From contig NC_068559.1 in the NCBI RefSeq assembly GCF_022201045.2, positions 24,745,501 to 24,809,500 on the forward strand: DNA of 64,000 nt, given 5' to 3'. A model generated the notes under the pieces. It was not told where the DNA came from and did not search any database. It was given only the letters and a program-made list of their open reading frames with translations. Source of the DNA: Citrus sinensis (taxonomy: Eukaryota; Streptophyta; Magnoliopsida; Sapindales; Rutaceae). Shown here in pieces: positions 2,476 through 37,789 of the stretch. The translations under genes were made by a program, and so were the position numbers. Each line of letters begins with the position of its first letter. Position 1 is the first letter of the stretch.

Positions 2476-2484
2476 TTCGTTTTG
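2476..2484. repeat. Left target-site duplication of element A
   Basis: The bases TTCGTTTTG directly precede the left terminal inverted repeat and recur exactly at 37781-37789 after the right one. Nine bases is the standard duplication length for MULEs. No mismatch is present between the two copies. Confidence 0.88.
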
Positions 2485-2583
2485 GGACTTCCCTGCGGTG
2501 CCACAGTGGCACCGTGCCACTGTGGTTTGTCTTTATTCTGTTAAGCCGTTGGATATAAGTATGCTCAATCCAACGGTTTAAAT
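2485..2583 (+). repeat. Left terminal inverted repeat of element A
   Basis: This 99-base end pairs with 37682-37780. It contains a 15-nt interrupted palindrome, GTGCCAC-A-GTGGCAC, at 2498-2512, and a longer hairpin with 11-bp arms at 2501-2511 and 2515-2525 around a 3-nt loop. The block after it (GTCTTTATTCTG at 2545-2556, then AAGCC, then the inner AATCCAACGG motif) is nearly identical in the other end. Weaker similarity to the partner continues to about 2625. The palindrome is probably the transposase binding or pairing region, which is inference. Confidence 0.88.
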
Positions 2584-5500
2584 AAAAGTATGGAGAGCGG
2601 ACGCAGGTACTAACAACAACCGTTTAAACCGGTTGTCTAATGAAGGTCTCGAAGTCGATGGAAACAAAAATACGAGAATAGGATGTGAAACAAATTTGAA
2701 TCTCAAATCTGACATTTGCGAGAGAGGGGAATAACAGGAAATTTCGTTAGGTAAGGAAGGGTAAAGATTCTTTCCTTAAATCGTAAATGAATGTGTGTTT
2801 TTTGGTGGTCGTGATTTTGATTTTTCCGTAAGTTAGATGTTGCTGCCGATTTCTGAAATTATATTGTATTGATGTCTGTATTATTGAAGATGGCCTTGTT
2901 GGTATTATGAATCTGGCATTTTTGCAGGCACTGGAAGAGTCGTTTGGCATGCATAGGTAGGCTTCATGTTTGTGAATGCGTTTTTGTAGTGGATTTCGAA
3001 GATGGGGTTTTCGAAATGCCTAGGTTGCGAAGAGGTGAATGGCTGGGTTTGCTCAGGTTGAAATAAATATAGTAAAGGGGTTTGAAATAAATACAGTAAA
3101 GGGGTTTGAGCAGTGGGGTAATCATTGACATGTTAAACCTTATTTATGGGTTAATGGTTAAGGAAAGAAACATAGTTTCAATGGATGCTTTTGATTTTCG
3201 GTGGCTCATACTTTGTGTAGATGTAGTTTATTTATTGTATATTAGTAAATATCGACAGTGGGTGCATAAAAATAATGGTTAATTACATACATACAGAGCC
3301 ACAAATGGAAAAAATGACATAATATTGGTGGTTCGATCTGTAACCACTTTGTTAGTGAGGCGTGTGCTTTGGTTGGTCATTCACTTTAAGTATATGTATA
3401 ATATAATTGTCTTTGTTTGCTACGCATAATACATTTATCGGCTTTAAGATGAAAAGACTTGCATAAATTTAAAGTTATGCATAAATTTAAAGTTATGAAA
3501 GAGATTGCATGGAAAAGTTAGAAAAGTGAATAGTTCGAAATTTCTGTAGGATGCCTTTATAATCGATGAAGAAACAGAAATTGATGGTGGACATTCATTT
3601 GTTTATAGGTATATACACGCGGACTACTGCATTGGAGCTTTGGTTAGTAAAAGATAGTAAAGTGAGTTAATGGTTTATGTATTGATTAGTGGAGGTGTTA
3701 TTGATACCAACATTATTTAAATTCATTGAGTCCAATAAGTAGTGTATTCACCAAGGCATGTTGAGGCTATGATGTGTAGTGAAAGTTGAATAGTGGATGT
3801 GTGCTCGTTGTGGAGGTATATGGTTTACACTGTAATATAAAAATCTTCATTTGTTAAACGCAAGTAGTACTGACTTAATTGTGGTCTCATTAGTATTTAT
3901 TTAATACCTGTGGCATCTACCTGTACAGCAGAAGTGAAGATTGTGGACGAGGAATCATAGATTGAAACAGATGTGGAGGCTGTATAGTTATATAGTGTAA
4001 ATTTTTATTGTTATATAAGTTAGTTATTACGTTTACAATGGTTAAACATGTTTGTATTTTGTTTGTTTATGTTGTGTTAGGATTTAGAAGAATGAGCGTA
4101 TGTAATCACTGGTGATGGTTGCTGACAAGGTATTGGAAGTTTCGTAATGGTTCTGGAGAAGGCAATGCAAGGGGGTGTTGAAGGCCTAGAAATGTTTTTT
4201 TTGGCCTTGTAAAACTGTAATAAGCATGTTTGATGTATTTGCTGTTCTATTGAGATATTTGGAGGATGGTAACATTTGGCCACCACAACTGAGTCGTAAA
4301 ATTGGATGATCTATCGTTATAGTTATTTTTTTTTTCCCGTATCCTATTTGTTGGTGGCATCGAAATTGGGTTGATTAGGTACCTAAATATGCATAATATA
4401 TATATATTTATTTATTCCAAAAGTTAGAGGGTATCAGGTCAGCATTTTAATTACCGAGCAATTCGGTGATTGGCGGGGATATAACTAAACTACCCCGACT
4501 GAAATTGTTCCAGAGTGGGACGGTTTGGGGGATTTTCACAAGATTGTGTTTGGGTTATGTTAAGGTCGTGGACGAGGTTCACTGAATGGAAGCATAATAT
4601 GCTCCACCGAATGGGTATGTCCCCAGTGTCTATTACTCTTCTCCAACAGTTGACGTTGAATTTGCAAAGCAAGAGCGACGACGGTGTTGGGTGAAGCACA
4701 TACAATGAGTATGAATTATAAAAGCTGGAGAGGATTACATATGAAAAGAATATGAACGTAATCACTGGGATCCTACTATGTTAGAACCGTGGAAATTGAT
4801 AGAGGAGGCGATTTAATGACAGTTATAATTATTCAGGACAATTGTGTAGATAATAGGAAATGGTTGTCTCCGAACTACAGATTTGTGTGGGTGGTCCTCA
4901 ATAGGGGTAGAGAGAAAGTTTGTAAGGGAAGAAAAACGGCAATCAGTTCTGAATATTGGCGCAACCATTCTAAGGGTTGGAGGAATTATGGAGATGGACA
5001 ATGCAAAATCGGGATTTATTTTATAGGCAGCGGTAGTAAGAAGAGAATAATGGCTATAGTGCTGACATTTTAGATGTTTTAGAACACGCAACGGCATCAA
5101 AAGTTGAGACATTACGGTTATTAGAGGGAAGCAAACAAACAAAGTGTGCAAAAGCATACAGGCAATAGATGCAGATTAAACTGGTCGTAGTTAATTAACC
5201 GGCAATCACAAACAAAAAACGTTGGTTGTGGTGGATATCAAAAGTTGGTTATATGAGAGTTAAAGTTTTTATGTACCAGTAACCATCTTTCCAGAAGCCA
5301 AATACAAAACATGCCCCATCCCACCACAAACCAATACATATATAAAACCCCATTGGCGCCATTCTCCAAAAATGGTGGTCTGCGGGCCAAAAGTTGAAGT
5401 GCAAGTCCTCCATCCAATTGAAACCGTTATCAGAGGCCTGCAGCACAACAAATTGACCATATTGTGTGAAAATATGGAAACTTTTGTAGAGAAACAATTT

Positions 5501-6104
5501 ATATATTTAAAGGAAAAGAAATTGCACTGGTGTGCAACGATTTTTATAGAGCACAAATTTTAAGTGTTGGGCTCCCAGTTGAAACAACCAAGGAAAAATA
5601 AAAAATTAAGTAATAGGCAGTAATAGTCATTAAGAAACAACGCAATTATAAAGTTCACATTGACGTCATTCTCAGCATGGCACAATCATATTCGACACAT
5701 TTATAACAGTAATTGGATACCACTACCATCCAACAAGGATGGTGTCAATCGAATGTGCAAAAGTTTTATTTCACCCTCACATGGTTGAAGCTCTTGGTCA
5801 TTAGTTAAAGATGGCAGTAATAGCAACAGATACATTGCAGTATGCGAATATGAAAAGTTGCTTATGTCAGGAGCAGCATTGGTTCTGTCACTGTCACAAT
5901 ATTTGCATAGGCATAGATAAAAGAAGCACCAGCGGAACAGAAAATAGTTTAGTTGCAATTAAGCACATTATATACATATGGTAGTTGTGAATTTGGTAGA
6001 ATGTTGAGGTAAAAATAATTTAGTGAGTTAAGAGCAGTTGTCATAAGAATGGACACTAAGGAATTGTGAATGACTTATGAGTTTGTTGCAAAATATAGTA
6101 AAAA
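2584..6104. other. Left interior of element A, no gene recognised
   Basis: About 3.5 kb between the left inverted repeat and the transposase. It includes short local duplications (for example an 18-bp unit repeated around 3461-3497, and AGTAAAGGGGTTTGA repeated around 3071-3111). It contains several short frames in both directions, of which 4789-5073 (plus) and 5249-5497 (minus) are the longest, without any domain I recognise. Downstream exons or the 3' UTR of the minus-strand transposase could lie here, because the C-terminus of that protein is not resolved. Confidence 0.4.
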
Positions 6105-8528
6105 TCACAGCGAATCCTTACTAATAGTATCAGAGCTGGTGGTGGATATGAGCCTAAGGAGGCTGGTATGTTCAGAAGAGTTGCTCGAATTCATATCCTG
6201 TGTCCACTGTAGTGAAGGAGTTAATATAAGTTTTCGCAAAAAGTACCCGTGTTTAAGGATGTGTAGTGCAAATATACATAGAAGTTGTGTAAGGAAAAGA
6301 TGCACCTGAAGGTTACGTGTAGGCGTGAGGTACTGATCAGCCACGTGTAGTAAATGTTTGTTGGATGTCAAGTCATCGGTGCCTTTGGCCGAAATTGGTT
6401 TGAGAGGCAAACTGATGGGTGGAAGCAAGGTGTGACCTGCGTCCCACTTCCAAGCATATTCTTGAGGTAATTGCATCATGCCTGGCGCATAAGTGGACAT
6501 ATAATTTTGTACAGACATCATGCTGTCCACATAGTCTTCAATCTTGCGCCTCATATATTTGATTCCCCTACAAGCATGAGCACATGGAATTCCTGAGATC
6601 TGCCATAATCCGCAACTACATGACATCGCATCCATGTTTAGCTCATAACATGATGAACAACTATCAGTCAGTTCCAATAATGTGCCAGTCTGCTTACGTA
6701 CGATGAAGCGCCGACCATCACTACAACGGTCGTGAATGATATCCTGAACTGTGGGCGTTACTTTCTCCCTATACCATTTCCAGACAACCATCCTTCTGCG
6801 TTCGAAAATTTCAGCCGTTGAGCGTGCAATGGCCGTAAATCTTCTAGTAATGCTCATCTCCAAATAGTGGTCAAAGGAAGTGCGAAGTTTCTCAGTAATC
6901 GTTAATGTCACACAGTTACACTTAACCCAATGAGGCATACAAAATAGTGCCCACCTTTCCCAATTTGAATTCTTTAACCAGTCATGGCATTCTTGACTTC
7001 CAAGAGATATCAATTCCATATAGTTATAGAACCTTGTAGCACTCGTGGTGCGGCAAGCAGACCAGAACAAGTGCTGTACAGGTGCTGTGGGGAATCTCCG
7101 GACCATTTCGTTGAAAATCCTGTGGCAGCACTGTCGGTACACAGCTCTAGGAAGGAATTCTTCAACAGCGTATTCAACACCGTTGTCTCCATCACCCAAT
7201 ATGCATAGACCTTTGCCATTCTCCAAACGCAGCGCGCTGTTGATATTCTTTAAAAAATAAACCCAAGAATCCAAGTCTTCGACCTGAACTTCGCAGAAGG
7301 CAACTGGTAAGATCCCATTATTTCCATCAAGTCCAGCTGCCACCAGCATGACACTGTTGCACGGATTGTTAATTTCCCAACCATCAACAGCTAGGATACC
7401 TCGGCAATGCACCTTGAATGCATAGGATGTACGTGCACAGCATACAAACACCCTCTTGAACCTTTCTTCTTCTCGTGATTCATGGGTCTCAGTTTCCACA
7501 AGCACGATGTTGTCCCTATCGATCCTTTCCATTTCTTCCTTGAACTGATGCAGCATTGCATAACCATCGTCATAATCCAGGCCCAATATCTGTTTTGCTC
7601 TGTTTGCTGCACAAAACACCTTCCACTCAGGGCATTTAATCCCATACATGGATTCAATCTCATTTCTGACCTCTGTTGTGCTGATACTTGGCTGTTCTTT
7701 CCATCGATGAAGAAACATTGCTGAAATCCACTTTGATGCAGGGTGAAATGCGTGGTCAAGTCGAGGGCAATTGTGTTTTGGTGAGAATTGTGTTATAACA
7801 AAACCCTTACCACGGACATCTCTGATTGCTGTAACCTGCCAGTCGCAAGAAAGATCAGAACACTCGCAACTGACAATGTGAGATCGGTTTTCCATAATGC
7901 ACAACTTGAACTGTTCACGAATTGCATACACTTGAATAGCATTCCTAAACTGGGTCACATCTTTAAATCGCTGGCCGTGATATAATACTAGTCTACGATG
8001 TACACTGTCATCAAATATGAACCAGTCACCCACATATTCATCCAATTGGTTTTCTACCAATCCGTACAAATTGTCCTTCTCTTTTTCTGACGAGTATCCT
8101 TCTAATTGTTATTGATCATCGTTTACGTCTGCCAACGTGTCTCGTTCATCATCCGAGTACCACCCTGTTGGCCAACGTGTTTTAAGAAACACAGGGGTTT
8201 GTTTATTCCTTTTTAGATGTTCCGTGCAACTTGGGTTACCCTTGCGAAGCACCCGGCATTGTTGATCTACCAGTTCGCCCTTGCCTTTTGTACTGGGAAA
8301 TAGCTCCTTGGACACTTTTCTTTTATTTTTTTCATTCTTAAACTGTAATGCCTTTTGCAATTTCGCCGTGTCAGTATCCAATATAGCCGTTCGTCTATTT
8401 GTTGAGCTACGGGAACGAACATATTCTGGCAAACAGTTGGAGAGGCCAGCGTGATTCGTAGAACTAATAAGCCTGCGCTTCTTTGGCTCTTTTATACCTT
8501 TGACAACAGACTGCTTATCCTCTTCCAT
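6105..8528 (-). CDS. MuDR-type MULE transposase with one in-frame TAA
   Basis: This is the probable autonomous transposase of element A, which would cut and join the terminal inverted repeats in the nucleus. It reads from ATG at 8528 for 139 codons, meets TAA at 8109-8111, and continues in the same frame for hundreds of codons; the ATG at 8069 alone opens 654 codons. The first part is basic and lysine-rich (EPKKRR, KNKRK), as in a nuclear localisation signal. Numbered from 8069, a Mutator DNA-binding domain spans about residues 29-101 with its C, C, H, C residues. The MULE catalytic domain covers about 218-325, with candidate acidic residues in LAVDG (D229) and GDGD (D293/D295). A SWIM zinc finger (C484-x-C486...C496-x-H498) follows. 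It lacks the PB1-like N-terminus and the terminal CCHC knuckle common in plant MuDR proteins. The stop is followed by CAA TTA, a known readthrough context. The last 80 or so residues look out of frame or unspliced, so the true C-terminus is uncertain. Confidence 0.85.
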
Positions 8529-11500
8529 GACTAGCTTTGAATTTGGTTTATCTGTTTATTAAATCACCACAAGCATGAGCAAATGAAAAAATTGATATGC
8601 TGATGATCTTCCAAGACGGCCTAAACTGTGAAATGCGGGATAGTTTCTTCAAATAATGCACATAACTGGCCATCTTCCCAAGTAATCAATGGTGTGGCCA
8701 AATATACATTTTAAATGCAAGGTTAATATGACAAATTTAAACCAAATGCACATTGCTGTTCAACAGAGAAGTTGTAAGTAATAGCTAACGTAACAATTAT
8801 TTGTAACGTAAACATGCGTCTACCGTACGATTGCAAACCTGATTCGTGCTACAATAAACTACCCATACAACAGTTTTAAAGTGATTATTACATTTCCGTC
8901 ACATGCAATTTCATTGCCCAGCGGAATGAACATATGTGAGACAGACTTGTCATGAAAAAACATGAGCACGATATAATTTTGATGTTTACCTGGTGTCACT
9001 CTGTGAAGATGTATTCAGCATACTCTCCTTCTTTGTGGCGTTGTTGGCTCCCACTCCTCAGTTATTCCTTCGAATCGATATATGGGTTTCACATGTAGTA
9101 TTTACAGGATCCTGTTCATGCACAGATTTATGAAACTCCCTATGATGGCATTTTGGGGAAGAAATTTCCTCTCCTGCGCAAATGTCGTCCATCATTTCAG
9201 CTTTTTTTTATGGATTAACCTTCCAAAGCAACGATTGCCACAAAAATAAATTAAAATGCCGGAAGTTTGCAATTTTTTTCCTTTCATTGTCAGTGGTTGC
9301 GTGGGAAACTGTACTTGGCCGGCGCATTTGTCTGCTACGAAGCTTCGATGAGCTATCCTTTTTCCCAGATTTTTACCAACACTCCCTCGCGTTCGGAAAA
9401 AACCTACCATCATGGCAAATAGCTCCCCTGTTCTAACCAACTAATCCCTACTAGTGGGTGGAAACCATGATATCACTTTGTCAGTAAATATCCTAATCTT
9501 CAAGGACCAACGACGTAATTGTCACATGCACGTTTATCCCGGCCCGTATCAATAATACATAATGTCAGGCCCCAGTCTCGCGCCTATGCAGTGTAATTTG
9601 TGAACTTCGGGGGTTTTATAAGCCGTGCAACATATGTTACCATCAATACACTTAGGGGAATATCACGTGAATTCCAAGTTAACAGTGGACGTAAGGATTT
9701 TGTAACAGCATTTTACTTAGTATTTGATTTGTTTTATGTTGTATTGGTCACAACAATCTCCTTACTATTCCCAGATTATGCTTTACAATTCGTTCCACAA
9801 CTATGTTCAATTCCTAATAAATTGTACAACTTCTTCATATTGTTCCAAGATAAAATGAACATTAGTATTTGACATAGTGCTGTTTCAATCTTGTATATTC
9901 GAAATTTGTTGAGAGGTCTTGATTCCCCTCATTTGAACACATATAGACTTTAGATAGCATGACATTGGATAGTTAAATAATTAGAAAGAAAGCAGTGCTT
10001 GAATTAAACAAATCAAGAAAAGTAAACAAACCTTACAATTTACTCATCAAACCACCATAACTATTTTGGTATGGTATTAATAAATAATATAATGTTGCCT
10101 AGTTATTTTAATGATACGATGACAAGTAATAGAGAAACTTGTGATAAATAAAATATTTCATGGTAAATTGTTATTTAAATTCAGCTATTACATGAGATTC
10201 ATATTGGAAATAGATATTACATTACATTCAATTAAAAATAAACATTTTGTTGAAGAATGAAATTACTTTATTCTGCAACAGTTAAGAATGTATCACTATA
10301 ATTCAATAAGTTTGGGCGAAATAAATTGAGTGTACTATGTTATACCTATAATGAAGTGACAAATTTGTATGTTATTTATAACAGTAATTTTACTGTACAA
10401 GACATATTTCTTTGCGGGTACTTATTTATACTATGATCACAAAAATTAGATTCGTAATTATGTGTATTACCTCTGCGAATATAAGGTCGACTTAAAAGAA
10501 AAATTGGAAATATCAATCTATGAAACTGGCTGCTTGAAGTGATGTTATCGTTTTGTCCTATGTTTACATACAAATATAAGATGTGGGGGACCTACATCAT
10601 ATAATTGGAAAAAAAAATATTCCTTTCAAACTATTCTAATTATTACATCTTTACCGGGAAAACTATGGTAGCACACTGGTATCATACCACTACTGGATCC
10701 AGCCATGTGCATAATTTCCACAATAGTCACTAGAACTGGATCCAATGGCTAGATCCAGCTACCTAGCCAGTAGATCTCTAACTATAGCTTGATCCGATGG
10801 GTAGGTGCAACTCCATCCCATGGAAGCAATGTTCCACCATACCTAAGTCTCTTATAATGATAATGTTCACTACTACAATTATGTGCATGTGCCCCCATAA
10901 ATTAAATGACACAAATTATTAAATTCGCGACAACATAAAATTAGTGACCATAAAATTAAACAATTAAACACTAAAAGTTGGACACATTATGTTATAGCCA
11001 TCATGGTTTATTCTCTGTGTTATGTTTTCTCCATTACTACTGCTTTCCTTGACGACTGTTATTGTTATTGCACAGCATACAAATGAAAATTTCGCATATA
11101 ACATGTGTACAATTCCCATTCCGAGCGCCAATTTCATGTGATTCCCAATACGTTGGCCATTATTTTGTAGTATGCATTTCCTGATTATTGCTTCCACTCA
11201 TGCACGCATCGTCTACAACTAATTAACGATTACAAATAACATTCAATACATTTCCATGGATGTTTAATATGGTTGATAGGCAAAGCTTATGTTACATTAG
11301 TTGTATGTTACAGTTATAAATTCTTAAACCCTTTGAAAAGATTAATAATTATTAAAAAAGTCAATAAGTTTTAATGTTTTACATTATATCCCAGATTGTT
11401 TATACTCCAGGTTGTTTGCACCCAAGCTGCAATATTTCAAGTTTTTATGAAGTTCTTCAATAAGCACAACTAGCACAGTTACTATGAAACTGCTCAACAA

Positions 11501-14408
11501 TTTTATCTAATTTATTTAATTGAATCTATAACTTGTTAAATTTTATATCTATTGAATTTTGATTCATTAAATTAATAATCTCTTGGTTTAATATATCATG
11601 ATTTTTAATGTTGAAGTCTTTTATGAATTGTTTATCTTTATTACATTCTTTACTTACTTGAGCACTTGATCTCTTAACTTTTTATTTTATTTTATATTCC
11701 TTCATTGAAATTATTAATTCCTAATATTTTGTTTACCATTTCTATATCATTTATAGAAAAATTTAGATTTTCTAATTTATTTAATAAATATAGTAACATT
11801 CAATTTAATTGATTATTTCTCCACATGTTTGAATCATTGATACGATCAAAGAATTGGAATCATTTTATTAGAGGCTTTGGTAATTTATTCATTGTACCAT
11901 CTTTTTAAGAATTCATTAGATTTATAAGATATTTATTACATATAATGTCTATTATAATTCATGATACTAAATATAGATTACAAAATCTGTGTGATGGCAT
12001 TGATGATATGTATTTAACAACGAAAATAGATTGAATGTGTGTGTGTGTGTTAGAAGAAAATTATAGTTTATGTCTCAAGAGAGACAAGAAATAAAAAATG
12101 TAAGCGCAAAAATATATTCAAAGTTTGCGGATCTTTATGAATATAATAAGCATATAAATCTTTATGAAAATATTGAAAAAAATTTATAAAGTTTAAAAAT
12201 ATATGTAAAAAAGATTAATGAAAAAATCATTTAATTCTAAAAAATCAACGAGGATGTATTTGAAAAAATAAGTAAATATATGATTATAAAATTAAAATTT
12301 TTTATAAATATATCTTTCACCTGTATTTTGTTTTATGTTAAAAATTTTTTTTCCATTGGATTTAAGGAATATCAAAAGCAATGGCCTATATTCATTGGTT
12401 GTTTGTTACATTATATGTAAGGTAAGCTTTGCCCGGTTGATAAATTATGGTATTTATGTACGGTTGTGTTTACTATTAATTAAAATTTACACAAAAGTAT
12501 CTCCCTCTTTTTGCACACGTCCAAACACGGCCTAAGATGCTAGCACTTGCTGGTTATCGTCCACATATAATTTTAGTCAGTGACAAGATTGTCATTGCTT
12601 TTGACAAGTTCGCCTCACTTTTCCTTCTGTTAGTTCGAAGTCATCTTCCCGGAGTTGTTGCTGTCAACAGCACGTCGCGTCTCCGGTCGGGACTCCAACT
12701 AACAGGAGCATTCACAGGTTCGGCGCTTCTCTCTATGCACATGATCTTTTCAGTTCGATGCTTTCCTGCTTTGATGCTTAGTTTTTTTAGAACTGTGATC
12801 AATGTATTGGGAAATATGGTAAAATGTTTCAATGCTGATATTATGATCCCATGGCCGGTCCACTTCTCTGACCTGCGTTAACGTCCCCCCAATCGTCCAC
12901 GTGACCCTCTTCCAAACTTGTACAACCTGTTCACTTGAGCATACAACTTTTGAACGTTTGTTATATACTTAATATACATCTCCATGGTTCAACTTTGTTA
13001 ATGAGGACTATTACCATATTATTTCAGTTCCCCCCATGGTATTGTACTTATGGTGAAGCTTCGGTTTAAACTATGAAGGTTATACTATCAGTCGCACCAC
13101 GGTTTGATAATGGTCCACGATTAATTATAGTTCACAAAAATGTATCTTTTGAGGGACGCAGCTTCATTTGGGTGTACAAACAGTCCTTTCTCATCCCAGC
13201 ACCTCCATTATCGCTTTCTAAATCAGTACCTCATTCCTCTTTTGTGGGTCATTTATAGCTTGCATCTTCGATACGGATATCTGTTATCCGGCGGTAGTTG
13301 TTTCAGTTTAAAAGGGCTGAATTGCGGCAATGTTGTCGCGATTTGCCGCTTCCAAACTCCAGGCCACATCCAATTAGGAAGTGTTGATTTTTTTTTCTTG
13401 TTATTCAAATTTTATTTTTTGTTTTGCTGTAAAATGACATTGTTTTTTACCATGGCTTTCCTCAAGGTGGAACAGATTTCTCACCCGATCATGAACTTCC
13501 ACATAGCGGTCAATCTTGAATCGCGGACGTGCCAAGTGCTGTTTACGTCGTCGTTCGTTGATGTGTTTCTCACTTGGGACGGCTTTCTTTCAAATTTCAC
13601 TTTTCACATCGAGGCCAACGAGGCGTCCATCATGTTCGGCCTGGCACGGTTGGTGTACAATCGCATGCGCTACCATTAACGTCCACACTGAAGATGCACA
13701 TTTCTAGATGCTGCCACTTATTTGAAAAATGCTCACATAGCGAACTCATTTTCCTTTTCTCGTTAATGGTAGCGAAGGTCTTATCATAATTTTTTTTTGT
13801 CCTCGTAATCGCATATAAGGGGTAGCATCTAGATTGTCAAAAAATGAGCTGTTGGTGTTGCAGACTTGCATCAATAGCGTTTTCCTGTTTTGTCAGCTTG
13901 GTTTTTACAAATATCACCCTCCGCCCAGAACGTTGTCACCTTGTGGATTAATAAAATGACGTCTTTTTCGGCCACAATTTCAGTTTGCAACCATGCTTCG
14001 TTCTATCCTAACTAAGGGGAACTGACTTGAATTAACAGTGTATGTTTCTCAACACATTCAACACCTTAATGCGCACTAAAATAGATGCCTTCAACGATAT
14101 AGTGCATGGGAGCTACTAACAATATTTTACAGGGAGGTCAAATATTTCATTTTTCTTAGCCCTAACAATCCCCTTACGAATCATATCAAACACGACGATC
14201 AGCATGATTTGTGCCTAACGTGCATAAAACAAACACTGTAGCCCCACTTTCAGGCCACGATGCACAAAAACAATGACTATATACCTTAAAAAACACAATG
14301 CAAATTTACTGGTCACACGTGTTTATTGCCGGATTAGCTCTAAATTTAAACATATACATGGAAACTATTTATACTTTAACACCCACCATACTGCTACCCA
14401 TGCTGAAA
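8529..14408. other. Element A interior between transposase and GRF protein, no gene supported
   Basis: Almost 5.9 kb. The part next to the transposase start probably holds its promoter and 5' UTR. From about 9900 to 12500 the DNA is very AT-rich with no long frame, plus a short GT microsatellite near 12035. A less AT-rich patch at 12540-13790 carries frames of 114 and 179 codons on the plus strand, but they show no domain and overlap open frames in other phases. It may hold remains of a captured gene. Nothing here can be named safely. Confidence 0.4.
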
Positions 14409-14813
14409 CTAAAACCACTGCCTCGGCACTCCTGGATCGGCCGAGGTCCTCACCGAAAACCACCATAAGTATAGCACAACCAACGCTCTTGCCAGTATAT
14501 TCGCGATAATGATCCCAACAAAGCAGGCCACTACATGTAAGCGACTGAGACGGTAGGCTCCTGTCCTTTCCTGCACATACTCACGAAGACTGTGCCATTC
14601 ATCGTTATCCGGGGTCCACCAATGAAAAAACTTGCAGGTGTCGCAGCAAAATAAAAGCCGTTGTGGGTTCTTTGACGATTCAGAAATCCGTATTACAGCT
14701 CGTCGGCCATCATAACAGTTGCAATATCGATTTTTCAACGTAATCCACCTACGACGATCTCCACCGTCCTGGTTGTTACTCATTTTATTGGTGCTATTGG
14801 TAGACGAAGACAT
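14409..14813 (-). CDS. GRF-type zinc-finger small protein with C-terminal membrane segment
   Basis: A 134-residue protein if the ATG at 14813 is used; the frame is open further upstream to 14948, but the serine-rich MSSS start is more like the family. The centre holds a GRF zinc finger: CNC, then NPQR, then FCCDTCKFFHWW, which matches the C-x-C ... NPGR ... C ... C-x-F-x-W plan. After an acidic stretch comes a hydrophobic run of about 25 residues (VVACFVGIIIANILARALVV) that should form one transmembrane helix. Small plant GRF proteins with this layout (At4g04775-like) occur in many copies. GRF fingers bind single-stranded DNA or RNA in other proteins, but for this small plant type the function is unknown. 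It sits alone inside element A, with no neighbour closer than about 3.5 kb. The frame has no break. Confidence 0.6.
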   Translation of the reverse strand: MSSSTNSTNKMSNNQDGGDRRRWITLKNRYCNCYDGRRAVIRISESSKNPQRLLFCCDTCKFFHWWTPDNDEWHSLREYVQERTGAYRLSRLHVVACFVGIIIANILARALVVLYLWWFSVRTSADPGVPRQWF

Positions 14814-20606: not shown

Positions 20607-20637
<31 letters not shown>

Positions 20638-26619: not shown

Positions 26620-26758
26620 TTAATGGATTTTGGAAGCTCAAATAACACAAGCAACTTTTACTGCCCATCCCCATCATTACCCATTCAACATGCATCATGA
26701 GCATTTTCCAACAACCTCTATAAACAAAAACATATTTGAAATAGACCTACACATGAAT

Positions 26759-28565: not shown

Positions 28566-29116
28566 CACATGAATTAGTGAGTTGTCAAATGTAAAAAAAT
28601 TTAAGAAATACAAACTTTTACTATCAATCCCCGTCATTACCCATTCAAAATGTTTCGTTACCGTTTTCCGGCAAGCGCCATACACAAAATCACAGCGAAT
28701 TGACTGAGAAAAACCAGAAAATTTATTAGAAAAATACTAGCATAATTTTGATAAATTTGCACATATGTAATTTTTTTTTTAATATTGTAAGGAAAGATAA
28801 AAAACTTGATCATGGTGAACATAATTGTTTTATTTACTTATAAAATTGTGAATATTTGTACTTGTAAAGGACGAAAATGTTAATAAAGTCAGTGATTTAC
28901 GCATCATAAGCTTCAGCCCTTGTACTTTAGTTGTGTCAGTCTATAAATTATTATTACGGGTAATATTGTCTTATCAAAGTGAACAGTTAGTCAATAAAAA
29001 TAAAAACCCCAGATAAATTATGGTACGGGGTCTTTTAAAATTAAAATAAGTTTCCCCATCTACTAGCAACATCCTCAAACCTCAGGGGAAGTTTATAAAA
29101 ATAACCCAGTTTATTA

Positions 29117-29389
29117 TTTTCTTCGGGAATGATATCACGTGTCTTAGTGGCCAAGGGACGGGGCTGAACTGCTGGGCTGCGGTAAGTGAAGGGCTCTCTC
29201 GCGTTTTAAAAATCCTTGCACGCGGGAAAAGACACCAACTTGAAGCTTCTTTGTGCCGCCTACCCTATTGAAAGAAGTTTCGTAGAAGGTACTGAAAGCA
29301 GAAGAATAAACTTGCGGACAAAACATATTTTAACAGAGGAAGAAAATATCTCAACCACCTGAAATTTGACGTTATCTGATGGTGAACTT
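29117..29389. other. Upstream region of the FAR1-like gene
   Basis: Between the end of element C and the first ATG of the FAR1-like gene. It is less AT-rich than the flanking nested elements and contains no clear TATA box. It may be what is left of that gene's promoter, cut short by the insertion of element C only about 280 bases upstream. Confidence 0.35.
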
Positions 29390-32026
29390 ATGACCACAAT
29401 GACTGATTCAGACGAAGGATTGTATGACGGAGATGATATGCAGTACCAGATTAATGTAACTTCCGACGATGAACGCAGCTCAGATGCATCAGCTCACAAT
29501 GAAGTGGAGACAGACAATGAAGGGGCAGGAATGGTGGCTGAACCGCAGTTGAACATCGAAGGCGACAACCGTGGAGGAAGTGGTCAGTTGGAGAACGATA
29601 CTCAACAACAGCAGTGTACTGAAGATTGTAGTGAGGCTGAGAGTGCGCTTCCGGAAATGTTAGCAAAAGAATTCGCAAGTGAAGAGGAGGCTGGCATATG
29701 CTACCAAGAATATGCAAGGACAGTTGGCTTCGGCATTCGGAAACACAATAAACGCAGAAATGTGAAGGGGAATATCACTGGCAGAACGTGGGTTTGCAGC
29801 CGACAGGGATTCAGGGCTGCAAAGCACATGGAAAACAGATGCAGAGGGCGAGAAGCCAAGGCTGTTACAAGGACGGGATGTAGAGCACAATTTCGAGTTA
29901 TTTACAATGAAGATACTGGCCGATGGGCGTGTAGTTTTCTTCAACGCGTCCACAATCACAACTTAACACCGCCTCAGCTAGTGCACCACATTAGGTCTCA
30001 CAGAGGAGTGACGGGTCCCGACTTGTCAGCAGCTTTATCATTACATAAAGTGGGCGTGAAGCCATCTCAAATTCACGAGTTTATGGTTGACAGATCAGGA
30101 GGTTACGACAAGGTTGGGTATAATAGGAGGGATGTTGAAAATAGGCTGGCTGCCACGAGGCATGCATCGTTGAAAGAATCAGACGCTGAGACATGCCTAT
30201 CATATCTCGATGGAAGAAAAAGCTCGGATCCGTCATTCTTTTATGACTTCACAATCACTAGTTCCAATCGACTTGGGGACTTGTTTTGGTGCGATGGCGG
30301 ATCATGCGCAGATTATGCATTATTTGGTGATGTTATTGCATTCGATGCAACTTACAAGACCAATGCATATCGGAAGCCTCTCGTGGTTATTTTGGGGATA
30401 AATCACCATCGGCGAACAATTGTATTCGGGTTTGCTCTGTTGTCAGATGAGACAGAACACACGTACACATGGTTGTTAGAGACATTGATGACAGCAATGA
30501 ACAACAAGCATCCGAGGACAGTTGTAACCGACGGGGACAAAGCAATGCGAAATGCAATAAGCAAGACATTTCCAGAAGCTTCACACAGGTTGTGTTGCTG
30601 GCATTTGGTCCGAAATGCTCAAACAAATATTCAAAACCCTGAATTTACAACGGAATTCCGCCGCTGCATGATGAACGCTTACACAAAAGAAGAATTTGAC
30701 CGAAAATGGAAATTGATGGTGGATAACCATAATGTTGCCGCAAATGAATGGGTTGTTAAGATGTTTGAAGATAGACATATGTGGGCTGAGGCTTATTTGC
30801 GTGGAAAGTTTTTTGGGGGAATGCGAAGCACTCAAAGGTCAGAAGGAATGAATGCGTATCTAAACCATTACGTGAATAGAAGGCTCTGATTGATAGAATT
30901 TGTTAAACATATGGACCGACTAATGGATCGACAAAGGGAAGCAGAGGGGAAGGATGACTTTAACAGTTCTGATGGACGTCCTGTTTTGGTTACACATTTA
31001 AAGATGTATGAGCAGCAAGCAGCTGAAAAGTTCACAAGGGCCATGTTTCGCCTCGTACGAGAAGAAATCGACAAGGAAGCGTTGTTAACTGCAGAAATGT
31101 GTGACCAGGATATAATGTCAACAACGTACAGGGTTAGGCGGTTTGGATCGGTTGGAAAAGAGGTGAAAGTAGTGATTAATGAGACCAGCAAAACCTTATC
31201 CTGCACCTGCAAGTTGCTTGAGACAATTGGAATTCCATGCTCGCATTCATTTGTTGTGTGCAAGGCTCAGAATATGACAGAAATTCCAAGTTCGATGATT
31301 CTTTCTCGATGGAGTAAAGCTGCAAAGATAAAAGCTCACACTTCGTCCGATATAAGTTATAATAAATCACATTACATGACGGAGCTGGCTCGTATTGGCC
31401 AAATATATGCAGCATGTCGAAGTTTGCTAAGATTCGCTGGATCAAGTTTGGCCGCATACAATGTGGCAATTACAGATATTCACCAGTTGACTTTGAAGTT
31501 GCAGGCAATGTCTCACACCGAAGAACCAGCAAGGCAACCTTTAGCGAGGAGAGACACAGTAGTACAAGATCCGGAAGTTGTTCTTACCAAAGGTTCAGTT
31601 AAAAAAACGAAGATGGGACAACCACAACAACGAAAATGTAGCAGATGTGGTCAGCGAGGGCACAATGTTAGAAAGTGCAAAAAACGAGGAGGGACAAGAC
31701 AGCAGCTGGATGACTGTTCAAGCCATTGCATGCAATTTTTTTGTGGTAGTAATGTAATGGGACCAAATGCGACAGACGCAGCAGACACAAACCAGGCGCC
31801 GCAACAACCCACACGATACCTTAACGTTATGTCGCGGCAGCAAATAGGAGAAAATGGTAGACAATTTTCTCCTACATCAGAGTCATGGTTCCAGCAATTT
31901 TCAGCCAGTACAGCAAGTCAATCAACCGACCCAACTCTAAACACAAGTGCCTTTGCAAGTGTATCCAACTGCATTGCAACCTCATCTTCTACACCAACTA
32001 ACTACGCCCACATTTGGAATCTGTAA
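29390..32026 (+). pseudogene. FAR1/FRS-type MULE transposase-like gene with one in-frame TGA
   Basis: FAR1/FHY3-family proteins derive from MULE transposases; some still transpose and some became transcription factors. The first ATG is at 29390. After an acidic N-terminus comes a FAR1 DNA-binding domain (about residues 95-190: FASEEEAGICYQEYA, then VHNHN). A MULE domain follows, with D in AFDATY (about 319), D in VVTDGDKAM (about 381), the HRLCCWH motif and the SEGMN glutamate region. After a TGA at 30887-30889 the same frame stays open for 378 more codons with a SWIM finger (CTCKLLETIGIPCSH) and a CCHC knuckle (CSRCGQRGHNVRKC). The stop falls between NRRL and LIEFVKHMD, in the middle of a normally continuous helix, so it truncates the protein before the SWIM domain. 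It is one C-to-T step from CGA (Arg). The gene is single-exon. It belongs to a different MULE lineage from the transposase at 6105-8528. The domain order and the CCHC knuckle favour a transposase over a domesticated factor. Confidence 0.85.
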
Positions 32027-32632
32027 AAGAATATTGGCGCTACTCCAAAAAGATCTAGAGGTTGGGGATTTAATACAACTATTTTTTTGCTCCCACTGTA
32101 TCCGTTAATTTTGCAACAAAAAAAAGAATATTTAAGAGGCAGTTGAGAAACAATTTTTATACCTATGCCAAGCTTAAATAAGCACAACTTGCGTAACTTC
32201 ATTCAATCCCTCGTTGAGTTCAATTACTACATAAAGCATCTTCCTCAGGACTACAACATAAAATGAATATTTCAGTAACTTGGCCAGGCCAAAGTATCAG
32301 TATCATATAATATGCAGAATTCAGAGAAGATGTTATTTCAGCTAACAGCATGTACTGATATAATACTCCAGGAACAGCCATCTTGACAAATTAAAAATTG
32401 ACGGCAATGTAAACTCATAAATGATTAAGTTCAGTAGTGAGACACTGCGACATCCACGATGGAAACTTTATTGTTATATGCCAGCAACAAAACATAAGTT
32501 GTTTATCACTCACAATTGTCAGTGGTTGATTGTGCTTTTTGGAATGATGAACTGCAACTGTCAAACCCAGTAATTTTTTCTTTTCGGAAAGCATGGATGC
32601 ACTTATACAATAGAACGTCAAATCAAATGCAG
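32027..32632. other. Convergent 3' region between FAR1-like and Ulp1-like genes
   Basis: The plus-strand FAR1-like gene and the minus-strand protease gene point toward each other across these 600 bases. They should contain both 3' UTRs. No frame, repeat or RNA gene is supported. Confidence 0.4.
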
Positions 32633-35600
32633 CTAATGGCGACGACCATGCCCCATTTGGCTCGCACTCCGAAGCTGTCGTACGCGCTTCTTTTCAATCG
32701 CTTCATAAATTGAATGGGCTTCATCGTCAACACGCGATCGATGCTTCTCAGCCTTCAAACGAACATTGTCCTTCAAACAGTTGAAACTGTATGTCATGAG
32801 ATCTATCAGAATGCGTGCCCTCTCACTATCTGAATCAAACTTTATCTGAATGAAATGAACAAACACAATAAGTACAAGGCAGCAAAAATTGAATGGATAC
32901 ATAATTAATATTAACGGCCTGGGTTATAGCATTGAACAGTTAAAAATGTTACGCACCTCTGCCTCCGAAAGGCATGACCACATTTTATGTCTCTCCATCA
33001 TCAACATAACATATAGTGCACAATCAGATTCGTTACGTATACTGGCCTGCCTGGTACAAAGCTGGATTACGAACTCGCTCATGTTTAACCTTCCCGATAA
33101 ACAATTTGAGCCACAATGTTGCAACGCCATCTCAATGAATTGTAGCTGCAGGAACATCCGTCAATCGATAGATTGCAGTAATAACAATAGTAATATTTGA
33201 CACTTCATTTTAAAACAAAGGAGGATTATTTACAACAACAATGGTTCATTTATAAGTAATTTTTTTTGGCAACAAAGTACACTCGATTGGCATCTACATT
33301 GGTAACTCACCGCTCGTTTGCATTCAACAACGAACATTTGTGACTTCATTGCAGTGGGCAGTGGATCCCATATCTCCACCCGCATTTCGTATATTAATAC
33401 AACCAATAAGTACCAGTGTGTAAAACCATGGTTCACCGGGACAAAAATCTATTGATGATTGCAATACCAGGGTGAAATAAACTGACAGATAACATCAAAA
33501 TTAACTAAAAACGAGGTTTGCTGATTGCTTAAGTAAAAAATGCTTACTTGCTTACACGAACCAATATTCGCCAGGTATAAATCACCACTGATAAATTGTT
33601 TAATACCAAAAGTAAGGTCTGTGGGGTCCCCACTGATGTTATCGTGCAACTGTACAGTTTATAGAACATCAACGCTATCACAGCCGAAACTAAAATTATA
33701 GGCAATGGAAATAGTGGGTTGCCAAACTTGAATAACAAATATTTGTAATGCTCTAGTTAAATGTAATTACAAGAACAATATCTCAACTTACATGCATAGT
33801 AAACAGATGCACCATATTGAATGAACACACGAAATTTTATGTTAAACTGTCCCTTAGGGGATAAAATTTTAATATTGCAATATAACACAAAGTCCTTATA
33901 GCAGAATACGCTGGCAGAAAAAGGCTGAAATTACTGTTTCCCACGTTTACACTCGCATTCGCAGATAACAATTCTGAGACAGCAGAAACAATCTGAAAAG
34001 TACGAGTATTAACACTTGCATGTAAGGGGTATTCACTTCATTCAACATATAAACAAATAACAAAAACGTCAAGCCCCATTAAATTCCAAGAGCAATCATT
34101 ATAAAATGTGTATGTATTATTCATACAAGTACAGCACTTGACAGAAGGTGGTTGTACCTTCACATTGATTGTACTTCTAGGAGAGAGAGACATAATATCA
34201 TGTCTGCTGATGCAATTGAAGTTCGTCTTAAAAACTATTTCCCTGCAACGGAAAATCTATCATGCAGACATTTTTGCCATAATTATTGATTTCCTACAAT
34301 TAAGTCCGTTTATTCGAAGCTCAAACACAATCAAGTAACTTTTTATATGAATGCCAGTACTAATTCAACGACATAAGTAATACGTTACCCCTTATTCAAA
34401 TTTTCATCCATGCAGAAGTTAATCAACATCTCGTCATCAGTACTCAAAGGTCTTTGCATCACATATGGTCCAACCCGATAACGTGCTCTGCCAGCACCTA
34501 TCTGATTAAGTGGTGACTTTGGATGGACTACATTCCCAGTCTTTTTATTCGGTTCTGAACACTTCTGCACCACAGCAGGCTCCTGCAACATATTTTCCTC
34601 ATAATAATTACAAAATTATAAAACATAAATTACATTCGGTTAACCAAAAACAACTAAAAGAAGATGCAAATTTCAGATTTAACTTTTATTAGTTACAGAT
34701 AACCTCAATCCTTATGTTACTATGCAAGCTTTCACTGCATGGTGGGGACGTCTGAGTCTCCATGACAAAATCTGCTACATCAATTAAATCCATATGTTGT
34801 GCATCTTCACAAACATCTTTTTCCTTGATTTCATTATTCTGGTACATACTGCCACTTGCTGCACTTTTGTACAATTGCTTACTCTCACAGTTGGTTCAAA
34901 CTCCCTCTCCTTTGGTTGCATCACTCCAGTCCTTCCCCTTATCGTTATTGCCATGGTTACTGCGGCACGATCCATCCGTCTTTAAATTTTCAACATATCC
35001 TGATGGCCTACTTGATATCACTACTGCCTTATCCAATTGACTAACTGACTTTATTTTCGTCATTCCCGGGGCTGTTGTCATCTGTCTAACATCCGAGTCT
35101 CTAAAATCTTCTTCCACAGCCATACTGCATCCATCTGACCTTGAGTTCGCCTTTATTACAGATGCAGCACAGACTCGTATCTAGTAAAACAATTTTACAA
35201 GTACGAAGTTATAAGTAAAGTGCTGAACCAAATATATATGTAACATCCAACTACAATAAATGTAAAGCAAGGACATATTGAAAAGCAGTATTCATGGATC
35301 GCACGTTTTTCATTGTAAGCATATTATTTGCTTTCATAGAATCCCACAAATTTACAATTCCTTTTTCAGATTACCTCATCGCTACTATAACCACCTTTAT
35401 TCTCTATCCATTTCATCAACCGCTTTATCTCATCTACGTTCCACAAGGCCAGGGGACACATAGACCTGTCTCTTTGTACTTTTCCATACACTATAGAATT
35501 AAAATAAAGCATCTGGAATAAACAAAAACAACAATGCAAATTATAGTCAGTTACTCAACTGAACAAAGTGAAGGAAAATATTGACACTATATCATTCCAA

Positions 35601-36657
35601 GATGCGATATCACCTCTAAGTACAAAAGACAGCCGCCTATGTATGCCAATTTCTCTTCCTTGTACCTAGTAATGCCTTCAAGAAATTTATGAAAACAAAA
35701 TGTGGCCCAATTCCTCTTCTGGATACAGTTCACATCTTTCAAAGAAAATAAGAAATTACAACTTATGTGTACTCCACCAGGGGGACATAGAACAGTATAT
35801 AGAGTAAACAACATAAATGTGACTTTGAACCTATCATCGGCTGCCGTCGAATTACTCAACATTTCTGCCAATTTCTTGATGTTGATTCCTGTAGATGATG
35901 CACTGAACATCTTTACATATGATTCAACTTCTTTGATGTCACCCTGTAATCTTAAAGGCATGCCCCCATCTATTAATCCCATGACATGACCAAAGCTATT
36001 AGCACTGAGCTCTACCTCATTACCATTCAAAACTACAACGCGCCTACATACATCAATCCTATCTACCAACCAACCACAAAGCTTCCTTTTCAGCCTACCA
36101 CTATTCAACTCAAGCACGCTCCCCATACCCATTTCACATACAGCTGCTCTTTGTTCATCAGATAGATTTGTAACAGCTGCTGCCAATCTGTCTGGTGCAC
36201 ATCGTGTAAAATATGTGTTAGTTGCTTCCCCTTTGACTGCTTGTTCGACTCGGACTTTGTACTTCCATTTCATCTTTGGTGGTAAATTTTTAAATGACGT
36301 CGCAATTTCCCTTCGAACCTGCAGTTAATAGAAACACACAGACATACACCTTATTGCCAATTAAAAAGGTGTTGCGGTACACTAAATTTTATTTCCATTT
36401 AACGCACCTCTCTTGTAATGCTGGTGTTTGCATCTGTTGCCTTCATTTTACGCACAGTTGCACCACTGAAAGTAACTCAAATCATTTCCAATCCACTCGT
36501 CATTGATAAAATTTAGTTATTTGGATAGTAAACATACTTACAAATAGCTGATGAATCCATAATGGGTATTACGTTCTATTGTTCGATTGCCTTCCATATC
36601 TTCGTTCAAGCTGTTTACGTCCCTACATTTTCGCTTGCGAACCTCCCCTACCTTCAT
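32633..36657 (-). CDS. Ulp1/SENP-like SUMO protease gene of the MULE-associated type
   Basis: C48 cysteine proteases of this kind process or remove SUMO. Exons I can join by frame and GT-AG borders, from the ATG at 36657: 36542-36657, 36408-36465, 35614-36318, 35375-35512, 34704-35180, 34389-34582 and 34158-34242. Less certain middle exons follow (about 33935-33992 and 33545-33650), then 33311-33448, about 32957-33149, and a last exon ending at 32633. The third exon carries the long helical module common upstream of Ulp1 domains in plant repeat proteins (FTRCAPDRLAAAV, then LYTVLCPPGG, then NWATFCFHKFL, YIGGCLLYLE). The protease core keeps a His motif (NHGFTHWYLLVV), an Asp motif (EIWDPLP) and a Cys motif (ESDCALYVM). 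One TGA at 34896-34898 lies in the hydrophilic linker of exon 5 and is one C-to-T step from CGA. A linker intron might remove it. It sits just inside the right end of element A, the usual place for the Ulp1 gene in Kaonashi-type MULEs. Confidence 0.75.
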
Positions 36658-37681
36658 TGCTGCACTGAAATTATAAATGAGTGCTTCTAACGAACTGCAC
36701 CATTCTGATTTTACAGAATTTAATTACAGGGTATGTGTAAAACCACAACAATAAGATCACAGTCTATAAACAGACTTATCTGTAACAACCATGCCACCGT
36801 CTACAATGTTAATCAATCATTTTCATAGACTCATTTCGAGGGGCTTCACACATTAAATGCCCATCAACATTCTTGATTTTCTAAGAAACACATTCATGCT
36901 AATTGATTCCAACAATCAAACTAACAATTGAACACTAACATCTCATCCATACATTATTGGTGACCAGAAGATAAAACAAAGTTAACAATTTCATTATAAG
37001 AACATGCCATAAATGTATGTCCTCATCAATTACCCATATAACTAATTGATACTTACAAAAGATATTTACTTACTAACAAATTTCAATTCATCGTCGAACA
37101 CTTTTAAGTCCCTCTTGTGCCTTCAAACCGGCAATTAGTGCAGTGAGATTCCTCAAATCAGTCCTCCCTAGTAACATCACATTCTTTGACGACCCCTGTT
37201 TACATACTTAATCGAAAATTTTCCCCATTACCACTCGTTTACTGAACTCTTCCACCAACTATTCAACTAACCCTAAAAACGTCTTTTATAAATATTCCAA
37301 CTAAAACAAATTGCAAGTTTATATCGAATTACCTACTACGTTGGATCATTCGATATGCCCACACTTTCAGCATCAGAAATTCCTTCGAATGCACATGCCG
37401 GGAATTTTTTTTTTTTATTTCACCATCGCCTCCCTACAACTGCGCGGACATATTCATGTACACATCAACCGTTTGCTAATATTCCACCAATAATTGCGAT
37501 CCAGGAATACCAATTTCGTGTGTTCACTTTTTGTCTACAGATTGATTTTCAAATGAAATCGCTGAAACGGTATGTCGTAGATCAAAGATCCTGAAATGCA
37601 CGCTCACTATTAGATGGTATTACACTCACCCAAAACCGGCTACAAAGGTTGTCAGTTCTCGCGGCCTTTCTCCAATAATTA
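36658..37681. other. Right interior of element A, upstream of the protease gene
   Basis: About 1 kb between the first recognised protease exon and the right inverted repeat. The ATG at 36657 follows directly after an acceptor-like CAG, so a further 5' exon or UTR exon and the promoter are probably here. Weak inverted similarity to the left end extends to about 37640. No independent gene is visible. Confidence 0.4.
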
Positions 37682-37780
37682 ATTTAAACCGTTGGATTGA
37701 ACGAGTAACCATCCAATGGCTTCACAGAATAAAGACAAAAAACTGTGGCACCGTGTCACTGTGGCACCACAGGATGACCC
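37682..37780 (-). repeat. Right terminal inverted repeat of element A
   Basis: Inverted partner of 2485-2583. The best conserved parts are the 23 bases nearest the interior and the GTCTTTATTCTG block; the outermost ten bases have drifted more. It is followed immediately by the TSD copy at 37781-37789. Confidence 0.88.
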
Positions 37781-37789
37781 TTCGTTTTG
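37781..37789. repeat. Right target-site duplication of element A
   Basis: Exact copy of the nine bases at 2476-2484, placed immediately outside the right inverted repeat. Confidence 0.88.

Follow-up and report, generated by a model that had tools for sequence, protein, structure and literature searches.

Is a block of more than 35 kb, bounded by inverted repeats and abutted on each side by the same nine bases, a single DNA transposon, and which machinery could move it? This question is raised by a locus of Citrus sinensis that we analysed within a stretch of 64,000 nucleotides (hereafter, the window). A sequence-only reading had proposed that the whole span from 2476 to 37789 inserted at once as a giant Mutator-like element (MULE).

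Borders and copies of the element

The borders proposed in this way were right, but the span takes in the target duplications, and the element proper measures 35,296 bp (2485..37780, + strand), with borders that are common to the copies on C7 and C3. The same nine bases, TTCGTTTTG, do lie directly against positions 2485 and 37780 (2476..2484 and 37781..37789, both on the + strand). Their chance agreement, judged very unlikely from the start, amounts to about 8e-6 for two given 9-mers when calculated from the base composition of the window, and a stronger argument is provided by four other copies with their own duplications (9/9). The inverted ends are real as well, but they are not identical over their first 99 bases, where 80 of 98 aligned columns match with two one-base gaps. 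Their similarity extends to about 136 bases (102/135 matching), and BLAST of the element ends aligns 126 bp at 79%. The left terminal inverted repeat (TIR; 2485..2617, + strand) begins with GGACTTCC and the right one (37648..37780, - strand) with GGGTCATCC on the minus strand; with about 130 bp and 76–82% identity, these repeats are long, as in TIR-MULEs. The only Rfam match at gathering scores is a tRNA located outside the element.

Besides the window copy, the family comprises two full-length copies and two derivatives, and in all five copies of this genome corresponding ends are accompanied by distinct perfect 9-bp duplications. The full-length copy on C7 is 35.3 kb long and flanked by TAATTTTAA (9/9), and that on C3 reaches 48.0 kb, of which 12.5 kb correspond to a later insert resembling an LTR retrotransposon, and is flanked by CAACAATTT (9/9). 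The C5 copy is a 15.3-kb deletion derivative (CATTTTAAA, 9/9), and a short derivative of 1.35 kb on C7, only about 80% alike, carries the duplication TATTATTGA (9/9). Over 35,273 aligned columns, pairwise comparison of the three full copies gives 81, 81 and 90 substitutions (0.23–0.26% divergence), with 36, 45 and 45 private changes, and, among the copies compared, similarity ends at the terminal repeats. The block transposes as one unit and, in recent times, has reached three chromosomes in full length; its insertion as one giant MULE is supported by the full-length C7 and C3 copies. Three copies on different chromosomes have the entire interior in common, at 99.2–100% per BLAST piece, which contradicts the alternative that the two ends come from separate smaller elements. 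The search that had been suggested, for further copies whose matching ends are separated by over 20 kb, returned, in addition to the C7 and C3 copies, four diverged sisters of 23–33 kb.

Two places with weakly matching ends, at C4:28.39 and C5:31.20 Mb, show no or only short matches to the element, and no other place with near-identical ends appears among the matches listed in two end searches. When the sequences flanking the window copy were joined and searched against this same genome, they hit nothing except either side of the occupied site, and no empty site was recovered. We also considered the 15.3-kb C5 copy as an ancestral small form into which DNA was later inserted. This was rejected: by eye, no duplications are present at its three junctions in the window, so these junctions look like deletions.

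Genes of the element and of its diverged sisters

The element contains two transposase frames. The MuDR-type frame (6105..8555, - strand; 816 codons) has DBD_Tnp_Mut, MULE and SWIM domains and is transcribed toward the left end. The FAR1/Jittery-type frame (29363..32026, + strand; 887 codons) combines the FAR1 DNA-binding and MULE domains of Jittery/FAR1-type MULEs with a CCHC-like knuckle below cut-off, and is transcribed toward the right end. PF10551 is above cut-off in both, as for MULE-type DDE transposases, with catalytic residues judged by eye only. Catalysis by the MuDR-type protein seems doubtful, because its MULE domain reaches just 34 bits against a cut-off of 27.6, compared with 110 bits for the FAR1-type. 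Its putative D, D and E, assigned by eye, are retained between the window family and the C8 sister, and the surroundings of its C-x-x-H look unusual by eye. Searching the PDB by sequence gave no relatives for either transposase, and AlphaFold2 run without alignment gave the MuDR-type protein a pLDDT of 34. Omega is 0.235 (0.18–0.30) for the MuDR-type against the C8 sister and 0.153 (0.10–0.21) for the FAR1-type; both transposases are under purifying selection. The MuDR-type frame is interrupted by a single stop in the window copy and in the C3 copy but is open in the C7 copy; the FAR1-type frame has one in-frame stop in the window copy and is open in those on C7 and C3.

Near the right end, and convergent with the FAR1-type gene, lies a DUF1985/Ulp1-like gene. 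Its DUF1985 exon (35587..36324, - strand), which Pfam recognises below its curated cut-off (E 0.0004), has an omega of 0.19 (0.12–0.29). The Ulp1-like 3' pieces (32636..33470, - strand), which include VPVNHGFTHW...DP and SDCALYV and give a weak Peptidase_C48 match below cut-off (E 0.032), probably belong to the same gene. Two small ORFs are also kept in the C8 sister: a cysteine-rich one with a hydrophobic C-terminus (14409..14948, - strand; omega 0.18, 0.10–0.32), without Pfam match, which looks GRF-like by eye; and one of 191 aa (18356..18931, + strand; omega 0.35, 0.21–0.55), with a C-terminal CCHC-like knuckle seen by eye and no Pfam match.

Two passengers, a nested MULE of 3.8 kb and an F-box gene, account for part of the 35-kb size. 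The F-box gene, probably captured, has an F-box and LRR part (22273..23298, + strand) with one stop in the window copy, and an FBD-domain exon (24149..24517, + strand) that is probably part of it; its comparison with C5 (omega 0.81, 0.37–2.27) is uninformative for selection. The nested MULE-like element (25272..29107; 3,836 bp) has its own 9-bp duplication, AGTTTATTA, is present in all three full copies, and itself encloses a second-level MULE derivative (26759..28565; 1,807 bp; duplication CACATGAAT). The sequence-only reading, right on block insertion, had missed the two transposases, the conserved gene set, these nested elements and the broken frames of the window copy. Word counts in the element core revealed no dispersed VANC-like motif that stood out: the best 8-mer was seen 9 times versus 2.4 expected (once in the C8 sister), and no 9-mer had at least 8 occurrences.

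The C8 sister (22012751-22036129; 23,379 bp; duplication CCCAAATTA) is colinear with the window element at 67–80%. Three others, at C4:8821413-8845477 (24.1 kb), C5:9207736-9240701 (33.0 kb) and C4:10568310-10593004 (24.7 kb), each have a TIR pair and a perfect 9-bp duplication and enclose matches to both transposases. With 4, 5 and 8 stops, respectively, in the MuDR match of these three, and 3 in that of the C8 sister, all four copies are decayed. At its right end, the C4:8.82-Mb sister has matches to the Ulp1 part and none to DUF1985, so that not every member has the complete gene set.

Linkage of the genes was counted on 68 of 725 MuDR-type candidates. Each of the 21 matches that reach at least 34% identity, located at 19 places, is accompanied by FAR1 and/or DUF1985 in this layout (FAR1 in the expected order and strand for 19 of the 21 matches, DUF1985 for 12), while none of the 48 matches at or below 30% identity shows it. 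Order and strand of the two transposase genes are the same at 17/19 places, down to 34% identity, and MuDR protein identity is rank-correlated with FAR1 DNA identity (rho 0.94 over 12 places, 0.89 over 14 when two partial ones are included). At C7:11.29 and 11.31 Mb, two short stretches of DNA resemble the MuDR-type gene but have neither partner beside them. Starting from the FAR1 side (28 of 50 FAR1 and 34 of 153 DUF1985 matches), a DUF1985 gene lies within 12 kb of 15/28 matches examined, and all 15 pairs are convergent. Both transposases, the DUF1985/Ulp1-like gene and the two small ORFs appear to form the recurrent gene set of an old lineage, which would represent a new MULE variant, giant in size and equipped with two transposase genes.

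Transposition of a giant block and its alternatives

Taken as a whole, we consider it highly probable that the locus is a giant MULE transposing as one 35-kb unit and belonging to an old lineage with a recurrent two-transposase gene set. Unit transposition, the borders, the 9-bp duplications, the recent spread, the recurrent layout and purifying selection on both transposases constitute its established part. Transposase would act on the approximately 130-bp terminal inverted repeats, and the block, moved whole, would be joined at a 9-bp staggered cut, giving the 9-bp duplication. The canonical FAR1-type protein may do the cutting, and the more diverged MuDR-type protein may serve as a second transposase or be an indispensable partner. 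By analogy with the VANC/KIU proteins of Arabidopsis VANDAL elements, among which VANC-like proteins strip methylation from elements of their own family, the DUF1985/Ulp1 protein could counter silencing. More tentatively, with the chances rather against it, the lineage might depend on the two transposases of the same element acting together, either with one per end or with one cutting and the other assembling the ends of a 23–35 kb block. If so, this dual system, together with a DUF1985/Ulp1 protein acting against silencing, would be what enables the lineage to reach and keep a giant size.

The FAR1-type protein could also be the sole transposase, the MuDR-type having lost catalysis to serve as a DNA-binding or regulatory helper, a reading to which we grant a little less than an even chance. 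The low MULE-domain score, the presumed oddity around C-x-x-H and the canonical FAR1-type protein agree with it, as do FAR1–DUF1985 pairs that have no nearby MuDR-type match among those listed (C5:25.75, C4:26.11, C2:27.89, C1:19.71 and C4:5.41 Mb). Against it stand the retained D, D and E, the omega of 0.24 and the MuDR-type frames of 796–845 codons that are open at 37–46% identity in four places (C9:26.80, C7:7.36, C2:14.19 and C6:5.43 Mb); conservation under selection would, however, be expected of a helper as well, so these points are compatible with the helper reading. It is rather unlikely that the block is in practice non-autonomous and mobilised in trans by a related active element. 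In favour of this reading, stops interrupt both transposase frames and the F-box frame of the window copy, and the 1.35-kb and 15.3-kb derivatives have moved, so that such ends can be mobilised in trans; but the C7 sibling keeps all six examined frames open, and the two end searches list no other near-identical ends.

Chance nesting of one MULE in another, one transposase being a passive passenger, has very little probability, although nested MULEs do occur in the element (25272-29107). The layout recurs in diverged sisters, the two genes diverge together, and both are under selection (omega 0.24 and 0.15), and this explanation was rejected on these grounds. For a segmental duplication or an assembly artefact without transposition, we found no supporting point, and its probability is negligible: similarity stops at the terminal repeats in the copies compared, and each of the nine elements whose ends were read has its own perfect 9-bp duplication, within the 8–11 bp of MULEs. 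Segmental duplication was therefore rejected on borders and target duplications.

An element of 35 kb that recently reached three chromosomes in full length extends the size range that MULE machinery is seen to handle. Two transposase families kept together under purifying selection make it testable whether two DDE transposases can share one transposon, and the element lends itself to asking whether large transposons are shielded from silencing by DUF1985/Ulp1 proteins.

Relation to known elements

Polintons/Mavericks and Starships are characterised by a DNA polymerase and integrase or by a tyrosine-recombinase captain, respectively. No Pfam match to these hallmarks was found in the ORFs scanned, which cover part of the exons, and the MULE transposases, like the 9-bp duplications, speak for a different affiliation.

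Known MULEs are compared here as described in excerpts of the cited papers. The KI-MULEs and KIU-carrying VANDALs (Kaonashi, Arabidopsis) pair a transposase with a DUF1985- or Ulp1-type gene, as the window element does, but they are non-TIR MULEs with three genes and an Ulp1 domain opposite to mudrA (PMC2528002, PMC13317346, PMC5735166). The window element, on the contrary, has TIRs and a second, FAR1-type transposase. Its DUF1985/Ulp1-like gene, whose Ulp1 match is weak, runs opposite to the FAR1-type gene but shares its strand with the MuDR-type gene. MULEs with an Ulp1 domain, to which the Ulp1-like pieces found here compare, also occur in melon, rice and grapevine, and those of melon include TIR-MULEs (PMC2528002). 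The grapevine families listed there reach 17.7 kb with one transposase type each, unlike the 35,296 bp and two types found here. FAR1 and MULE domains likewise occur in the Jittery/FAR1-type citrus CitMule (6.9 kb; 9-bp duplications in 3/4 copies; PMC4334395) and grape Jitvine-1 and -2 (11.9 and 14.4 kb; PMC2528002), for which these excerpts mention no second transposase, whereas here the FAR1-type gene is accompanied by a MuDR-type gene in the same element. Maize MuDR and coding MULEs have a MuDR-family transposase, TIRs and an 8–11 bp duplication, all of which the window element shares; they differ in size, more than 95% of 530 maize and 476 rice coding MULEs being 2–10 kb long with nested insertions removed (PMC3903597). 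Against this range and the grapevine maximum, the element is far above the usual MULE size, as first noticed. Finally, Pack-MULEs contain gene fragments and receive transposase in trans (PMC6431247); the window element resembles them in enclosing a host-type F-box gene, but carries transposase genes of its own.

Transposition of a 35-kb block as a single unit

The Mutator-like element (MULE) occupies positions 2485-37780 of the window (35,296 bp), with inverted repeats at both ends, and is bordered flush on each side by the same nine bases, TTCGTTTTG (2476-2484 and 37781-37789), as the sequence-only reading had described. This reading held a chance agreement to be very unlikely, and base composition gives about 8e-6 for two given 9-mers. 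The matching 99-base inverted ends that it reported are present, with a likeness lower than implied: 80 of 98 aligned columns are identical within the terminal 99 bases, and 102 of 135 when 136 bases are taken.

Using either end as a query against the 299.7-Mb genome (11 contigs; C3:n is position n on contig C3), and examining some of the weaker matches further, we found at least four additional copies. The proposed search for copies with the same ends more than 20 kb apart returned two of full length, C7:6732725-6768026 (9-bp duplication TAATTTTAA) and C3:23763696-23811678 (duplication CAACAATTT), the latter with later inserts of 12.5 kb and about 140 bp. The copy at C5:25740339-25755645 (15.3 kb, 87-96% identity, duplication CATTTTAAA) carries three internal deletions and two inserts, and a 1.35-kb derivative, about 80% alike, lies at C7:3075633-3076986 (duplication TATTATTGA). 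In five of five copies, the window copy counted, the termini correspond and are flanked by a distinct perfect 9-bp duplication. This shows that the 35,296-bp block transposes as a single unit, leaving 9-bp duplications, and upholds its reading as one inserted DNA transposon.

The deletion junctions of the C5 copy were considered as empty sites and rejected, because by eye the window is without duplications at those points. The 12.5-kb insert of the C3 copy (C3:23782473-23794988), with a 5-bp duplication TGGCG and TG...CA ends, is likely an LTR retrotransposon.

Gene content and reading frames

Pfam and ORF scans of the element reveal two transposase genes, a MuDR-type on the minus strand (6105-8555; DBD_Tnp_Mut, MULE and SWIM) and a FAR1/Jittery-type on the plus strand (29363-32026). 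On the minus strand there are also a short ORF rich in cysteine (14409-14948), GRF-like by eye only, and a DUF1985 exon together with Ulp1-like 3' pieces (32636-36324); on the plus strand lie a 191-aa ORF that ends in a CCHC-like motif (18356-18931) and pieces of F-box, LRR and FBD type (22273-24517). The DUF1985 Pfam match is under the cut-off (20.7 bits vs 35.1, E 0.0004), and the Ulp1-like call combines a weak Pfam match (E 0.032) with the pieces VPVNHGFTHW...DP and SDCALYV, which we take to be the usual Ulp1 surroundings of catalytic residues. These scans identified no gene in the left 3.5 kb. GC skew is mirror-imaged inside both ends (2700-5200 and 34000-37800), as might result from transcription directed inward from each terminal repeat. 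A few kb to the right of the element are PPR-like ORFs, called by eye (40158-41783), and farther right a tRNA gene (57765-57837).

A nested MULE of 3,836 bp (25272-29107, duplication AGTTTATTA), itself containing a second-level derivative of 1,807 bp (26759-28565, duplication CACATGAAT), is common to the three full copies (window, C7 and C3); the element therefore spread later than the nested insertion. The window copy has one internal stop in each of the MuDR-type, FAR1-type and F-box frames, and the C3 copy one in its MuDR frame. In the full C7 copy, the six frames examined are all open; intact sibling genes thus exist.

A lineage of giant MULEs with two transposase genes

Searching the genome with DUF1985 gave 153 matches, the nearest outside the element family being on C8. 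This C8 sister (C8:22012751-22036129; 23,379 bp), with terminal repeats and duplication CCCAAATTA, matches the window at 67-80% DNA identity in its DUF1985, Ulp1, FAR1, CCHC, GRF-like and MuDR segments, whose order and strands are unchanged; the F-box gene has no match in it. Three other sisters, known by their ends and matches and, for 8 kb of the first, by their interior, each have a TIR pair and a 9/9 duplication: C4:8821413-8845477 (24.1 kb, CATTATTCT), C5:9207736-9240701 (33.0 kb, CAATCTGAT) and C4:10568310-10593004 (24.7 kb, TCCAAATTT). With 4, 5 and 8 stops, respectively, in their MuDR matches, these three are decayed copies. The 9-bp duplication is perfect in nine of nine elements with both ends read, seven of them at least 23 kb long. 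They belong to a lineage of giant MULEs that carries two transposase genes, and this one plant genome contains seven members of at least 23 kb whose ends are verified.

The MuDR-type protein has at least 69 matches in the genome (68 of 725 candidates scored), which we compared with 41 of 50 FAR1-type DNA matches (the other nine being second pieces) and 121 of 153 DUF1985 matches (29 second pieces and three others omitted). Among the 21 matches of at least 34% identity (19 places), FAR1 lies in the window's order and strand at 19 (17 places), DUF1985 at 12, and at least one partner at all 21. At 30% identity or less, none of 48 has a partner in this layout, FAR1 being sought by DNA, so that distant partners could escape; for one of them, a DUF1985 gene lies 41 kb off in a different layout. 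For 11 of 14 MuDR DNA matches FAR1 keeps the same layout, at 36 kb in the C3 copy because of its insert; C9:17425158 has DUF1985 as sole partner, and two short matches, C7:11286768 and 11308040 (68-69%), have neither. MuDR protein and FAR1 DNA identities are rank-correlated (rho 0.94 over 12 places; 0.89 with two partial places). The FAR1-DUF1985 pair is more widespread: with the best 34 DUF1985 matches, 15 of 28 FAR1 matches (of 50) have DUF1985 within 12 kb, convergent in 15 of 15.

Coding MULEs of maize (530) and rice (476) measure 2-10 kb without nested insertions in more than 95% of cases (PMC3903597), and families of grapevine go up to 17.7 kb, those of Jittery-type up to 14.4 kb (PMC2528002), as far as the portions consulted go; at 35,296 bp, the element is, as claimed, far above the usual size. 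In the consulted portion of a review of giant eukaryotic transposons, Pack-MULEs are named and a giant MULE is not (PMC6431247). A limited search of titles and abstracts, with subscription papers outside it, found neither a MULE this large nor one with two families of transposase. Both the observation and the interpretation of the sequence-only reading were right, and the finding is larger than noted, i.e., a lineage of giant MULEs with two transposase genes instead of one element.

F-box sequences occur inside two sisters (C5:9220436-9221000 and C4:8835317-8835447; opposite strand, with a weak likeness of 71-77% over short pieces), and such genes may have been acquired more than once by this lineage; relatives outside, 74-76% alike (C9:27801506; C2:9284283), are possible sources. 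Sister-family ends facing in pairs 1.0-7.5 kb apart (C1:17668666-17670190, C2:23056956-23058484, C5:38207898-38208899, C3:20061252-20067302, C3:31566677-31572755, C3:45785098-45792593, C8:25326475-25332408) are probably short non-autonomous derivatives. DUF1985 genes also occur in pairs spaced 10.2-10.4 kb (C3:18663466/18673688, C9:2070801/2081023, C5:27432975/27443204, C3:34558602/34568975), at three of four places with a FAR1-type match about 6.5 kb away; these seem to be another multi-copy MULE family carrying two DUF1985 genes.

Selection, proposed roles and age

Between the full C7 copy and the C8 sister, which itself has stops, omega (our measure of selection) is 0.235 for MuDR-type (bootstrap 0.18-0.30), 0.153 for FAR1-type (0.10-0.21), 0.181 for the GRF-like ORF (0.10-0.32; 436 of 500 bootstraps defined), 0.349 for the 191-aa ORF (0.21-0.55) and 0.186 for DUF1985 (0.12-0.29), values that are rough because synonymous distances are 0.7-1.7. 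Comparison with the C5 derivative gives an omega of 0.48 (FAR1) and 0.49 (DUF1985). At four places of 37-46% identity, the MuDR frame stays open over 796-845 codons. The lineage is old and has retained both transposase genes.

The FAR1-type protein, with its strong MULE domain, would perform cutting and joining, and the MuDR-type protein could be either a second transposase or a required partner. The DUF1985/Ulp1 gene may be likened to the VANC/KIU genes of VANDAL elements, in which VANC, according to the portions consulted, removes methylation from its own family (PMC5735166, PMC13317346). Counting words in search of dispersed target motifs brought no clear result.

Pairwise, the three full copies are separated by 81, 81 and 90 substitutions over 35,273 gap-free columns, distances that correspond to about 0.16-0.18 million years at a substitution rate of 7e-9 per site and year; changes private to one copy number 36, 45 and 45. 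Their branches are about equal in length, as after a burst, three copies being too few for a branching order. Private changes are C-to-T or G-to-A in 28 of 36 cases in the window copy vs 47 of 90 in the C7 and C3 copies together (Fisher p 0.009), and CG sites account for 9 of these 28 vs 1,764 of the 12,724 positions with C or G overall; this excess and this CG share suggest that the window copy has been methylated.
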